Positions 4,054-8,908 of a DNA stretch of 35,869 nucleotides are shown here, in pieces (within the stretch, counting starts at the first letter, position 1; each line of letters opens with the position of its first letter). The position numbers and the translations under genes were made by a program. This stretch comes from Clostridium sp. (GTDB lineage Bacteria; Bacteroidota; Bacteroidia; Bacteroidales; Bacteroidaceae). Where the stretch lies: NCBI GenBank assembly GCA_023663705.1, contig JAMPGY010000025.1, positions 1 to 35,869 on the forward strand, given 5' to 3'. The notes below the pieces were generated by a model. The model was given only the letters and a program-made list of their open reading frames with translations. It searched no databases and had not been told where the DNA came from.

Positions 4054-5349
4054 ATGGAAGCACTGACACTATACGAACTCAATGCCCTTGTGCGCGGCAC
4101 GCTGGAGGCCGGGCTGCGTGCTCCGATTTGGCTTCAGGCGGAGCTTAGTGAGGTGAGGTGTGCCTACAACGGACATTGCTATCTGGAGTTTGTGCAGAAG
4201 GACAAGCACGGACGGTCTTTGGTGGCTAAGGCACGTGGCGTGATATGGGCGGGCACCTATGCTCTGCTGGCTCTGTCTTTTGAACGGGAGACGGGACAGC
4301 CGCTTGCGGCCGGCATGAAGGTGCTGGTGAGGGTGTCGGTGTCGTTTCACGAGCTATACGGCTACTCGCTTACGGTGACCGATATGGATCCGACTTACAC
4401 GTTGGGCGATCTGGCGCGCCGTCGCCGCGAGATATTGCAACAGCTGGAGGCCGACGGCATACTGACCGACAATCGCGACCTGCCTTTCCCCGTGCCGGCC
4501 AACCGTATTGCTGTCATATCCTCGGCTACGGCAGCCGGCTACGGCGACTTTTGCAACCAGTTGGCCGGCAATGAATACGGTTTCCGCTTCACTACCCGTC
4601 TGTTTCCTGCCGTGATGCAGGGCGAACGGGTGGAGGAGACGGTGCTGGCTGCGCTTGATGCCGTGCTGGCCGCGCGTGACGACTGGGACGTGGTTGTCAT
4701 CATCCGTGGAGGCGGAGCCACCAGTGACTTGTCCGGATTCGACAGCTATCTGTTGGCGGCGGCCTGTGCGCAGTTCCCTCTGCCTGTCATCACAGGTATC
4801 GGCCACGAGCGCGACGACACGGTGCTCGACTGCGTGGCACACCGCCGTGTGAAGACACCTACTGCCGCCGCTGCATTTCTGATAGACCGGATGCTTGGGC
4901 TGGCCGATCGGCTGGAGCAGTTGCGCACCCGGCTCACCACAGCCGCCTTGCAACGGATGCAGGGCGAGCGTGCCGTGTTGCAGCGTCATTCCCTGCAGCT
5001 GAACACCCTTTTCACCCGTGCCGTAGACCGTATGTGCCATGGCATGGACTTGCGCGTGCAGCGCCTGCAGTCTGCCCTGCACCGGCGCCTGCAGAGCGAG
5101 AACCATCGGGCGGATACAGCGTGGACGCGTCTGTGCATGTGTGTGGACGGACGCCTGCAACGCGAGCGTATACGGTTGGACATGTGGTGGAAACAGTGTG
5201 ATGCCGCCGATCCCGTGCATCTGCTCAAACGCGGTTACACACTCACTACCAAGGACGGAAAACCCGTTTGCGCCCCCGCAGACGTGCAGGCGGGCGACGA
5301 AATAACAACCCGGACGGCGGGCGGAGAAATCCGATCCGTGGTTCAATAA
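4054..5349 (+). CDS. xseA: Exodeoxyribonuclease VII large subunit
   Basis: A 431-residue protein. The N-terminal OB-fold (about residues 1-105) has the family pattern PIWLQAELSEV and GHCYLEF; the nuclease domain carries the conserved RGGG (RGGGATSDLSGFD), then ITGIGHERDDTVLD and VKTPTAAA; the rest is a long Arg/Gln-rich, probably coiled-coil region and a C-terminal HLLKRGYTLTTKDGKPV segment. Exonuclease VII digests single-stranded DNA from both ends and needs the small subunit XseB, encoded 12 bases downstream. Length and all core motifs are intact. It is probably cotranscribed with mnmA and xseB. Confidence 0.96.
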   Translation: MEALTLYELNALVRGTLEAGLRAPIWLQAELSEVRCAYNGHCYLEFVQKDKHGRSLVAKARGVIWAGTYALLALSFERETGQPLAAGMKVLVRVSVSFHELYGYSLTVTDMDPTYTLGDLARRRREILQQLEADGILTDNRDLPFPVPANRIAVISSATAAGYGDFCNQLAGNEYGFRFTTRLFPAVMQGERVEETVLAALDAVLAARDDWDVVVIIRGGGATSDLSGFDSYLLAAACAQFPLPVITGIGHERDDTVLDCVAHRRVKTPTAAAAFLIDRMLGLADRLEQLRTRLTTAALQRMQGERAVLQRHSLQLNTLFTRAVDRMCHGMDLRVQRLQSALHRRLQSENHRADTAWTRLCMCVDGRLQRERIRLDMWWKQCDAADPVHLLKRGYTLTTKDGKPVCAPADVQAGDEITTRTAGGEIRSVVQ

Positions 5350-5652: not shown

Positions 5653-6675
5653 ATGAAAGAGATAGACTGGTCGAGTCTGTCGTTTGGCTACATGCCGACA
5701 GATTACAATGTGCGTTGCCGCTACCGCAACGGCGCATGGGGAGAAATCGAAGTTTCGTCCGAGGAGACGATAAACATACACATGGCCGCCACCTGCCTCC
5801 ACTACGGACAGGAAGCCTTCGAGGGCTTGAAAGCCTACCGTTGCCCCGACGGCAAGGTGCGCGTGTTCCGCATGGACGAGAATGCGGCTCGTCTGCAGAG
5901 CACCTGCCGGGGTATCCTGATGCCCGAGTTGCCCACCGAACTGTTTGAAGAGATGGTGCGCAAGGTGGTGTGTCTCAATGTTGACTATATCCCCCCCTAC
6001 GAGAGCGGCGCATCGCTCTATATCCGTCCTCTGCTCATCGGCACGGGAGCGCAGGTGGGCGTTCATCCGGCCAACGAATATCTGTTTGTCATCTTCGTCA
6101 CTCCGGTGGGACCGTACTTCAAGGGCGGATTCGCCACCAATCCCTATGTAATCATTCGCGAGTTCGACCGTGCGGCTCCGCTCGGCACCGGCATATACAA
6201 GGTGGGCGGAAACTATGCAGCCAGCCTGAGAGCCAACCAAATGGCGCACGATCTGGGCTACTCCTGCGAGTTCTACCTTGATGCCAAAGAGAAAAAATAC
6301 ATTGATGAGTGTGGCGCGGCCAACTTCTTCGGCATCAAGAACAATACCTATGTGACGCCGGCTTCCACATCCATCCTGCCTTCCATCACCAACAAGAGCC
6401 TGATGCAGTTGGCCGAGGATTTGGGTATGACGGTGGAGCGCAGGCAGATACCGGAAGAGGAACTAGCCACGTTTGAGGAGGCCGGTGCATGCGGTACGGC
6501 GGCCGTGATCAGTCCCATCGAGCGTATTGACGACTTGGAGAACAAGAAGAGCTACGTCATCAGCAAGGATGGCAAGCCGGGACCGGTCAGCACGAAACTC
6601 TATCAGAAATTGCGTAACATACAGTATGGCATCGAACCCGACACACACGGCTGGACACAGGTGGTGATGGAATAA
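5653..6675 (+). CDS. ilvE: Branched-chain amino acid aminotransferase (fold type IV)
   Basis: A 340-residue PLP enzyme that exchanges amino groups between leucine, isoleucine or valine and 2-oxoglutarate. The signature GQEAFEGLKAY is at residues 52-62, YIRPLLIG near 123-130, and Lys183 in IYKVGGNYA is the expected PLP Schiff-base lysine; ECGAANFFGIK and ACGTAAVISP follow in the order seen in eukaryote-like long BCATs. It appears monocistronic: its own promoter box lies upstream and a strong hairpin (6726-6767) downstream. Length is normal for this BCAT subgroup. Confidence 0.95.
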   Translation: MKEIDWSSLSFGYMPTDYNVRCRYRNGAWGEIEVSSEETINIHMAATCLHYGQEAFEGLKAYRCPDGKVRVFRMDENAARLQSTCRGILMPELPTELFEEMVRKVVCLNVDYIPPYESGASLYIRPLLIGTGAQVGVHPANEYLFVIFVTPVGPYFKGGFATNPYVIIREFDRAAPLGTGIYKVGGNYAASLRANQMAHDLGYSCEFYLDAKEKKYIDECGAANFFGIKNNTYVTPASTSILPSITNKSLMQLAEDLGMTVERRQIPEEELATFEEAGACGTAAVISPIERIDDLENKKSYVISKDGKPGPVSTKLYQKLRNIQYGIEPDTHGWTQVVME

Positions 6676-6725
6676 AACGGCACACTGTCTTCTGCCGCTT
6701 CGTGTGCGGCATGATATATAGATAT

Positions 6726-6767
6726 ACACGGGTCTCCGGTGGCATGATGGCTGCCGGAGACCCGTGT
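6726..6767 (+). terminator. Strong hairpin after ilvE
   Basis: Arms 6726-6739 (ACACGGGTCTCCGG) and 6754-6767 are perfect reverse complements over 14 bases with a 14-base loop. The tract after it is GT-rich rather than a T run, so it is either an imperfect intrinsic terminator or a 3' stabilising hairpin. The 275 bases from 6768 to 7042 hold no gene or motif that I recognise. Confidence 0.6.
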
Positions 6768-7042
6768 GTTGGATAGAGATCCTGTCGTGCAGGATTGGGG
6801 GCGGATGTTTCGGTAGGGAGTTGGCAAGCAGGACAACCTTTGTCCGTACACTCAATGAATGCTTGTCTCATTCTCATCATTCCTGTTGTTCTTTTATCAA
6901 GCCCGCAATTTATTCCGCAGTGCCCCGCGGTTTATCCGTGTTCCGTCAGGATAACCATTCACTTTATTCTCCGTAAACTCTTCCACTCTTGCAGGTCTTT
7001 CGGTTGTCTCTTTCTGTTGTATCCTTTTTTTTCTGATGGGGC

Positions 7043-7233
7043 GATACGATCCCTCTCTTGGTAAGAGAGGAATCGGTGCGGTGTCGGGTTGTCTGTCAGA
7101 GGTTTGTGAAATCGCATATCTGAATTTGTTGAACACAATAGTTGAAAAAACACATAGATATATTGCTTAAGTGTTAATAAATTCATACCTTTACAAGGTG
7201 TTGAACCTCTCTTACCAAGAGAGGGATCGTATC
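7043..7233. promoter_or_regulatory. Probable invertible promoter segment (inverted repeats at 7043-7070 and 7206-7233)
   Basis: Bases 7043-7070 and 7206-7233 are exact reverse complements over all 28 bases. Each arm also contains an internal palindrome, CCTCTCTT-GGT-AAGAGAGG. The 135 bases between hold a good Bacteroidetes promoter, TTG (7163-7165), 20 bases, TACCTTTA (7186-7193), pointing right toward the DUF975 gene at 7281. This is the layout of invertible promoters that control phase-variable genes in gut Bacteroidales: inversion would turn the promoter toward the terminator side of ilvE and leave the membrane gene off. No recombinase gene is adjacent; in this group an invertase can act in trans. 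The repeats and promoter are seen; inversion itself is inferred. Confidence 0.7.
7163..7193 (+). promoter_or_regulatory. Promoter inside the inverted-repeat segment
   Basis: TTG at 7163-7165 and TACCTTTA at 7186-7193 with a 20-base spacer match the Bacteroidetes consensus except for the last base of the -7 box. The predicted start, near 7200, would place the right-hand repeat (7206-7233) at the very 5' end of the mRNA, where it can fold into a hairpin. Confidence 0.6.
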
Positions 7234-7280
7234 ATAAGTAGATAACTTTTATTAAATAAACCATTTAACATAGTTAGAGT

Positions 7281-7886
7281 ATGATAAAAAGTGCGAGTGA
7301 GTTGCGGGCTGCAGCCCGTCAGTCTTTGTCCGGAATGTGGGGTGGAGCAGTGATTTTGTATCTGGTGTATCTGATTATCTATGGCGGAGTGTCTGCCATT
7401 CCCATGGTAGGTTCTTTGGGCAGTCTGCTGCTGTTGCCGATGGCCTATGGAGTGAGTGCGGCTTTCCTTGATAATGCCCGCACCCGCAAGGAGTTTCAGG
7501 TGGGTGATGCTTTTGTAGGATTCAGCGACTACGGCCGCCTGTTCGGCACGTTGCTTCTACAGGGTGTCTACGTGATATTATGGACCATGTTGCTCGTGGT
7601 GCCCGGCATCATCAAGCAATATTCCTATGCCATGACGGTGTTTATCCTGAAGGATGAGCCCGAACTGAAGTACAATGCGGCCATTGAGAAGAGCATGGTC
7701 ATGATGGACGGCCACAAGTGGGACTACTTCTGCCTGCAGCTCTCCTTCATCGGGTGGGTGCTTCTGGCCTGCTGCACCTGTGGCATCGGTTTCCTGTGGC
7801 TCGGCCCCTACATGGCCTCGGCCTCCGCACATTTCTACGAGGAGGTGAAGGCCGACTACGCCAAGCGCATAGCCGGACAGTGCTGA
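7281..7886 (+). CDS. DUF975-like integral membrane protein
   Basis: A 201-residue protein with four to five hydrophobic segments (about residues 22-36, 42-60, 92-110, 150-175). The opening SASELRAAARQSLSGMWGGAV, the central VPGIIKQYSYAMTVFIL and the following ELKYNAAIEKSMVMMDGHKWDYF are typical of the DUF975 family, whose function is unknown. It is probably in the inner membrane. It starts 47 bases after the right inverted repeat of the invertible segment, so its expression is probably phase-variable. A terminator follows at 7909-7946, making it a single-gene unit. The next gene encodes a larger relative. Confidence 0.8.
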   Translation: MIKSASELRAAARQSLSGMWGGAVILYLVYLIIYGGVSAIPMVGSLGSLLLLPMAYGVSAAFLDNARTRKEFQVGDAFVGFSDYGRLFGTLLLQGVYVILWTMLLVVPGIIKQYSYAMTVFILKDEPELKYNAAIEKSMVMMDGHKWDYFCLQLSFIGWVLLACCTCGIGFLWLGPYMASASAHFYEEVKADYAKRIAGQC

Positions 7887-7908
7887 TGTGGCTTTGCCGC
7901 AAATGACG

Positions 7909-7946
7909 AAGGGCGTCTCCGCAGTGCGCGGGGACGCCCTTTCTTT
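7909..7946 (+). terminator. Rho-independent terminator after the DUF975 gene
   Basis: Arms AGGGCGTC (7910-7917) and GACGCCCT (7933-7940) pair perfectly with further GC pairing inside, followed by TTTCTTT. It separates the phase-variable unit from the second membrane gene. Confidence 0.8.
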
Positions 7947-8119: not shown

Positions 8120-8908
8120 ATGGAGAATGTAGAAAAAAGCCTGCTCAATCAGGCGTGGAAATCAGTGAGTGGATATTGGGGACGTTCCGTGTGGAGCGTG
8201 GTGCTTTACGGGTTGATATGGACGGTGTTGGCGTTACTTATAGCCGGGCTTTTTGTGGCTATGGGGAACAAGCCGCGCGAAGACAACCAGATGTTTGGTA
8301 ATATGGTTGGTTTTGGGGTCTACATTCCGGCGATGATTTTCGGCTATGGCTTGTCTTACTTCTTTTTAAGTGTGGTGCGAGGAGATGAGCGCGCGGCGTG
8401 CGGTCAGGTGTTCGCGGCGTTAAAAAGCACGCGTGAGGCGGGCACGGCTTTGCTCCACGGTCTGTATGTGGGGCTGGGAATGGTCTGCTGTTATGTGCCG
8501 GGTGTAGTGCTGACGTATGTTTTGGGCATGACGCCTTTTATCATGCGGGATTATCCGGAGGTGTCCGGTCACGATGCGTTGAAGTGCAGCCGCACGCTGA
8601 TGAAGGGGCGTAAGTCCGACCTGTTTATGTGGGATATATCTGTGAGTGCGCTGTATGTTGGCGCGATTATTCTCGAGGCAACGATAGTAATCTATGGCTT
8701 GCTGCCTCTGCTGGGGGGTGATGAGAAGGTGGGACGTATGATTGTTGTCGGGATTGCGGCTGTGATTTTCGGTGTTATTCTCATCCTGTTTTGGATTGTG
8801 CGCAGTGCAATGTACGCCTGCTTCTACGAGCGTGCCAAGGCGGCTTATGAGGCTGAGCACGGCGCGCTGACCGGTTGCCTGACGGTCGGACGTGAGCCGG
8901 TGGAGTGA
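8120..8908 (+). CDS. DUF975-like polytopic membrane protein (paralogue of the previous gene)
   Basis: A 262-residue protein that shares the opening SLLNQAWKSVSGYWGRSVWSVVLYG and the centre CCYVPGVVLTYVLGMTPFIMRDYP, then GHDALKCSRTLMKGRKSDLFMWD, with the upstream DUF975 gene product; it has about six membrane segments. The frame is open from a TTG at 8090, but ATG 8120 is preferred because the shared family N-terminus begins there. The 200 bases upstream are AT-rich and contain several near matches to the -7 box, none perfect. Function is unknown. The two paralogues are separated by a terminator and so probably regulated independently. Confidence 0.72.
   Translation: MENVEKSLLNQAWKSVSGYWGRSVWSVVLYGLIWTVLALLIAGLFVAMGNKPREDNQMFGNMVGFGVYIPAMIFGYGLSYFFLSVVRGDERAACGQVFAALKSTREAGTALLHGLYVGLGMVCCYVPGVVLTYVLGMTPFIMRDYPEVSGHDALKCSRTLMKGRKSDLFMWDISVSALYVGAIILEATIVIYGLLPLLGGDEKVGRMIVVGIAAVIFGVILILFWIVRSAMYACFYERAKAAYEAEHGALTGCLTVGREPVE

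Follow-up and report, generated by a model that had tools for sequence, protein, structure and literature searches.

A probable invertible promoter in front of a DUF975 membrane protein gene in a Bacteroidales genome

Introduction

Does a short segment bounded by inverted repeats, lying in front of a gene for a DUF975 membrane protein, act as a promoter that can be turned round, and if so, by which kind of enzyme? The question is raised by a stretch of 35,869 nucleotides (the window), which is contig C17 of a 2.74-Mb assembly that is 96.4% complete and whose genus, we infer, is Paraprevotella. Judged from the sequence and its relatives, the element is very probably an invertible promoter of a known kind that serves DUF975. 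That the segment is still switching in this strain is a less secure proposition, towards which the balance of the sequence comparisons nevertheless tilts.

Results

Anatomy of the repeat and the enclosed segment

The following features of the window are used throughout.

5653 to 6675, plus strand: class IV aminotransferase gene (Pfam Aminotran_4), which in relatives mostly lies directly next to DUF975
6726 to 6767, plus strand: perfect 14-bp inverted repeat with a 14-nt loop, 3' of the aminotransferase gene, given no score by the terminator scan (no T run)
7043 to 7070, no strand: left arm of the 28-bp inverted repeat, with the 15-nt core TCTCTT-GGT-AAGAGA at 7054-7068
7071 to 7205, no strand: inter-arm segment of 135 bp, the proposed invertible part (inversion is seen at two other class loci, not here)
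7163 to 7193, plus strand: Bacteroides-type promoter TTG-N20-TACCTTTA, directed towards DUF975, its -7 element ending 14 nt from the right core
7206 to 7233, no strand: right arm; its core, TCTCTT-ACC-AAGAGA (7208-7222), is the left core in reverse complement
7281 to 7886, plus strand: DUF975 gene (Pfam DUF975, E 5.2e-35), encoding a hydrophobic membrane protein of 201 aa, the proposed target
7908 to 7942, plus strand: intrinsic-terminator-like hairpin of 15 pairs, 3' of DUF975 (terminator scan)

The arms are complementary at 28 of 28 nt (100%), lie 135 nt apart and each contain the interrupted palindrome CTCTCTT-ACC-AAGAGAG; the earlier note had described two perfect repeats of this kind, and a recheck of arm identity bears it out. 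On the outer side, identity between the arms continues for 9 bases past the palindrome. The pair is the longest of the three exact inverted repeats returned by a scan of the window (at least 14 nt, arms at most 1500 bp apart), the other two being 14 nt. An exact 28-mer of the arm had no match in viral contigs. The layout is that of an inverton, with near-identical inverted repeats around a segment of about 100-400 bp and an internal promoter aimed at a gene in one orientation, the promoter match itself not being rare.

The promoter consists of a TTG at 7163-7165, a spacer of 20 nt and TACCTTTA at 7186-7193, and is the only match to the pattern TTG-N19..21-TAnnTTT on either strand of 6676-7280. 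Taken alone the match is weak, because the whole window contains 10 such matches and first-order resampling of the inner 135 bp yields at least one in 5.35% of cases. With that proviso, the promoter that the earlier note had placed between the repeats is indeed present and directed at DUF975, whose start codon at 7281 lies 47 bases past the right arm. A strong terminator-like hairpin stands directly behind the gene, and DUF975 therefore probably forms its own one-gene transcript.

The repeat is one of a class of sites

The window repeat can be assigned to a class of Bacteroidales sites whose core is TCTCTT-NNN-AAGAGA. In 18 genomes of the genus the core occurs 127 times, versus 6 for the same pattern written backwards as a control, and 13 of the 18 have a match (28 in P. 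clara and 26 in P. xylaniphila). An exact pair is present in 36 of the 49 genus loci examined, some of the 36 being mutual orthologues; the other 13 have contig ends or a mismatched arm, and L093, nearly identical to L081, was not counted. The centre bases match in inverted register in all 36 pairs, which comprise 14 centre types and include none that match in direct register only (a looser first pass flagged only an additional half-site in L099 as not matching). The window's own pair follows suit, its two inverted cores at 7054 and 7208 carrying the same centre bases (GGT/ACC). A tyrosine recombinase can exchange strands only where the centre, that is, the overlap, is identical, so that matched centres in every pair are what is expected of such an enzyme.

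The pattern extends beyond the genus. In a collection of at least 117 named stretches, 107 of the 122 pairs listed match in inverted register, nine in direct register only and six in neither; for the 111 Bacteroidota pairs listed these numbers are 104, five and two, the misses coming from Saprospiraceae and two other non-gut-type records. Among the matches listed from unrelated phyla and Saprospiraceae, the pairs are mostly direct or unmatched.

The place of the promoter is likewise shared. A promoter match stands beside one arm only in 24 of the 36 genus pairs, seven of these at 14 nt from the core, and 45 of the 122 named pairs listed have a match beside an arm, 24 of them at 14 nt; the window's 14 nt from -7 element to core is the commonest spacing of the class. 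We also considered the three-base centre as a private address of each locus and rejected it as a strict rule: the 14 pairs of P. clara share eight centre types, with ACT used four times, AGG three times and ACC twice.

A second class pair in the window's genome (L255, G000:C18:12549-12739) has a strong promoter towards a signal-peptide protein with a weak OmpA-like match. On its other side lies a gpmI-like gene (named by eye), as is also the case near the P. clara/P. xylaniphila pair L068/L100.

Evidence of flipping

Comparison of P. clara with P. xylaniphila indicates that sites of this class flip, since at two of the five loci that can be compared (L069/L104 and L075/L099) the segment runs opposite ways with respect to its flanks, the interiors being 91.8% and 90.6% identical once one of them is turned round. 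The remaining three loci are collinear, as is the G006/G012 pair. The sites that most resemble the window's, at 93% over 29 bp, are in L169, a contig from the record of another Bacteroidales, isolate C35. At 4108-5172 of that contig the same flank is joined to the segment in both directions, by eye a chimeric assembly of both forms.

The window's own genome holds 12 sites of the looser form TCTCT-N5-AGAGA (2 for its backwards control), eight of which fall into four pairs, in the window and on contigs C18, C7 and C41. Of the four unpaired sites, three are found close to a contig end (C7:1, C21:29063 and C27:1), at distances of no more than 135 bp and in two cases no more than 4 bp; the chance of this is about 1.6e-5, with a cut chosen after seeing the data. 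Contig ends at arms are to be expected where both orientations coexist in the sequenced population, because the assembler breaks there. At the window locus the contig runs through the segment unbroken, in one orientation.

Individual contig ends and gaps show what lies at such sites. At the end of contig C21 (L028/L030), the contig stops 4 bp past a class core, which lies upstream of a 777-aa peptidase-like gene with a 1099-aa receptor-like gene behind it (names by eye); a surface operon is probably under a switch here too. Contig C7 begins exactly at the site TCTCTTCTTTAGAGA (L039, G000:C7:1-15), beside a recombinase with its own repeat pair. In P. xylaniphila, loci L099 and L102 have runs of N at class sites, flanked by repeated arm sequence, as if scaffolding had failed at switches.

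Recombinases

The earlier note had left open whether a serine or a tyrosine recombinase would act here. The tyrosine recombinase domain has nine matches in the assembly, seven above the cut-off, and the serine recombinase domain PF00239 has no match in the 96.4% complete assembly (the control matched in 10 of 14 genomes). On this search, a serine invertase of the Mpi type was set aside as a candidate for the window switch. An NCBIfam search of the recombinases gave sub-cut-off Xer-type matches only, and no cognate enzyme was found adjoining the window switch.

The recombinases on contigs C7, C41 and C16 are members of a single family. All three genes are followed by an inverted repeat, which lies 23-55 bp 3' of the stop codon. 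Behind the C7 and C41 enzymes this repeat is a variant of the site class; behind the C16 enzyme the sequence is unrelated, and consists of a perfect 40-bp inverted repeat with arms 140 bp apart (L037, G000:C16). Among the matches listed, relatives of this family occur in 37 of the 117 named loci, and 30 of 38 family matches have a class pair at most 80 bp 3' of the stop codon, 29 of them with the exact core. The presence and position of the recombinase are the informative part here, as the named loci were chosen for having a pair.

A recombinase tree (57 of 71 rows; short, broken and duplicate rows left out) contains a clade of ten genus members, with support 100/99, whose genes have no adjacent class repeat (e.g. 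L265, L266). All ten genomes that bear it are among the twelve with scattered sites, the other two being the window's genome and G011 (10 of 10 versus 2 of 8; Fisher p 0.0015, relatedness ignored). On the exact core, G003 has the clade with no sites and G004 has one site, and G015 has five sites without the clade. This clade is a probable genus-wide trans-acting invertase of Paraprevotella. In seven of nine loci its gene adjoins the same transporter-like gene (MATE by eye only), usually divergently.

None of the nine tyrosine recombinase matches in the window's assembly belongs to the ten-genome clade, and the transporter-like neighbour was not found in the assembly at E 1e-150. As to a possible deletion of the enzyme from a syntenic place, a relative of a second clade neighbour (50% identity) is internal to contig C22, and no recombinase adjoins it there. 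At 96.4% completeness, the gene for a trans-acting recombinase may merely be missing from the assembly; within the assembly the candidates are the C7 and C41 recombinases, intact relatives whose own sites differ from the window core.

A conserved gene pair split by the switch

In a 301-genome sample of the family, 56 genomes have a DUF975 match; 30 were examined, the window's and the 29 best relatives. In 26 of these 29, the class IV aminotransferase gene (at 5653-6675 in the window; we take it to be ilvE) and DUF975 are adjacent on the same strand, in that order, with a gap of 11-68 bp (median 24); the other three have no aminotransferase gene within the stretch covered. The gap in the window is 605 bp and contains the switch. 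Neither a class core nor an inverted repeat of at least 15 nt occurs within about 1.5 kb of the locus in any of the 29 relatives. With the pair contiguous and free of repeats in its relatives, the switch appears to have been gained in the window's lineage, parting the two genes.

The earlier note had proposed this comparison, counting absence of the repeats from related genomes, with the promoter always in one orientation, against inversion. The repeats are absent from all 29, but the promoter segment is absent too; the comparison therefore points to a recent gain and says nothing on switching.

A second, diverged DUF975-like gene lies behind the first at 8120-8905 (E 1e-07, slightly below the Pfam cut-off), and none was seen in the 26 relatives with the gene pair, within the stretch covered.

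Genes beside the other genus pairs mostly begin with signal peptides (by eye). DUF975, as an integral membrane protein, stands out among them and looks an unusual target for this known type of switch. As a recurrent target of the class it was tried and rejected: among the class loci fetched, the sole DUF975 gene not linked to ilvE (L218) lies more than 5 kb from its pair.

Discussion

We propose that a tyrosine recombinase acting in trans would pair the two TCTCTT-NNN-AAGAGA cores of a 190-bp cassette and invert the 135-bp segment. As the segment lies in the window, transcription from the promoter would cross the right arm and enter DUF975 (ON). After inversion the promoter would point away, and DUF975, separated from the aminotransferase transcript and with a terminator of its own behind it, would be silent (OFF). 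The likeliest reading is thus a promoter that switches a one-gene transcript ON or OFF, caught here in the ON state. The invertible promoter, its ON state and DUF975 as the gene read into, all claimed in the earlier note, gain support from membership of the site class, from centres that match, from the constant promoter position, from inversion at other class loci and from the terminator behind DUF975. Flipping of this particular copy, the enzyme responsible and the effect on expression are what we infer from these comparisons.

The main rival to an invertible promoter is a locked relic: the cassette would have flipped while a trans-acting recombinase was present, and loss of the enzyme would have fixed the promoter ON for DUF975. 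Both the ten-genome clade and its usual neighbour gene are missing from the assembly, the contig passes the segment in one orientation, and G011 offers a parallel, having a scattered pair but no clade member. Against this, the 28-bp arms remain free of mismatches, the unpaired sites at three contig ends of this genome suggest some ongoing switching, and the C7 and C41 enzymes are intact relatives; we regard such a relic as unlikely, though the foremost competitor.

Less probable by a clear step is that the cassette switches something else, for instance, when inverted, an antisense transcript running towards the aminotransferase gene. The flipped promoter would indeed point at that gene, which lies on the plus strand, but as seen it faces DUF975 with 47 bases to the start, and no convincing leftward-read gene is present; switching of DUF975 and an antisense effect could also go together. 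Least credible of all is a reading without recombination, in which the arms serve as operators or RNA hairpins for a DUF975 regulator: each arm is palindromic and the right one would fall at the transcript start, yet arm identity runs 9 outer bases past the palindrome, centres match within 36 of 36 pairs while differing between loci, recombinase genes adjoin pairs of this kind and two loci differ in orientation from one species to the other.

The invertible promoter remains the preferred reading. A wider proposal, which we hold tentatively and at a little less than even weight, is that a gene otherwise fixed, across the family, as partner of the branched-chain-type aminotransferase gene was cut out in one Paraprevotella lineage and put under the heritable switch of a genome-wide regulon of a trans-acting tyrosine invertase. 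Phase variation would thereby extend beyond the cell surface to a function of the inner membrane that is possibly linked to amino acids. If true, this would be a clean case of a conserved gene entering phase variation (the pair is intact in 26 relatives and split in one) and a natural ON/OFF experiment for DUF975, a family of unknown function. It would also describe a Paraprevotella regulon, with 14 pairs in P. clara, whose probable trans-acting enzyme is open to direct testing.

Comparison with known systems

In the open library searched, and judged by titles, work that mentions DUF975 concerns streptococci, and the motif letters AAGAGA for invertible elements return no Bacteroidales literature; Paraprevotella is mentioned there alongside invertible elements and phase variation. 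A 2019 survey of gut Bacteroidota invertons reportedly underlies the grouping of repeat motifs with invertases. Gut Bacteroidota invertons are promoters flanked by repeats, as in the window, and fall into several repeat-motif groups tied to nearby tyrosine-type invertases (PMC11892184); the window's site class may be one of these groups. Switches of Bacteroidales resistance genes, in hosts that include P. xylaniphila, have a recombinase gene immediately 5' of the invertible promoter (PMC8748976). They differ from the window in their targets and in their cis-linked enzyme, none being adjacent here.

Two systems of Bacteroides fragilis, both described in PMC4747536, are also close to the proposed regulon. 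Mpi inverts 13 promoter regions with one enzyme, resembling it in the single enzyme serving many promoters; unlike anything found in the window's assembly, it is a serine recombinase. The tyrosine recombinase Tsr19 (BF2766) inverts a local and a distant promoter, and resembles the class in having an invertible promoter just downstream of the enzyme and further promoters elsewhere. Its known targets are exopolysaccharide and outer-membrane operons, whereas for the window copy the enzyme is only a candidate, and we liken the two by arrangement, not by repeat sequence. The same paper gives the Bacteroides -7 element as TAnnTTTG. Tyrosine-recombinase promoter switches, enzymes serving many loci and grouped repeat motifs are thus all published in these bacteria (PMC4747536, PMC11892184, PMC8748976), and it is on this account that we regard the window switch as one of a known kind.
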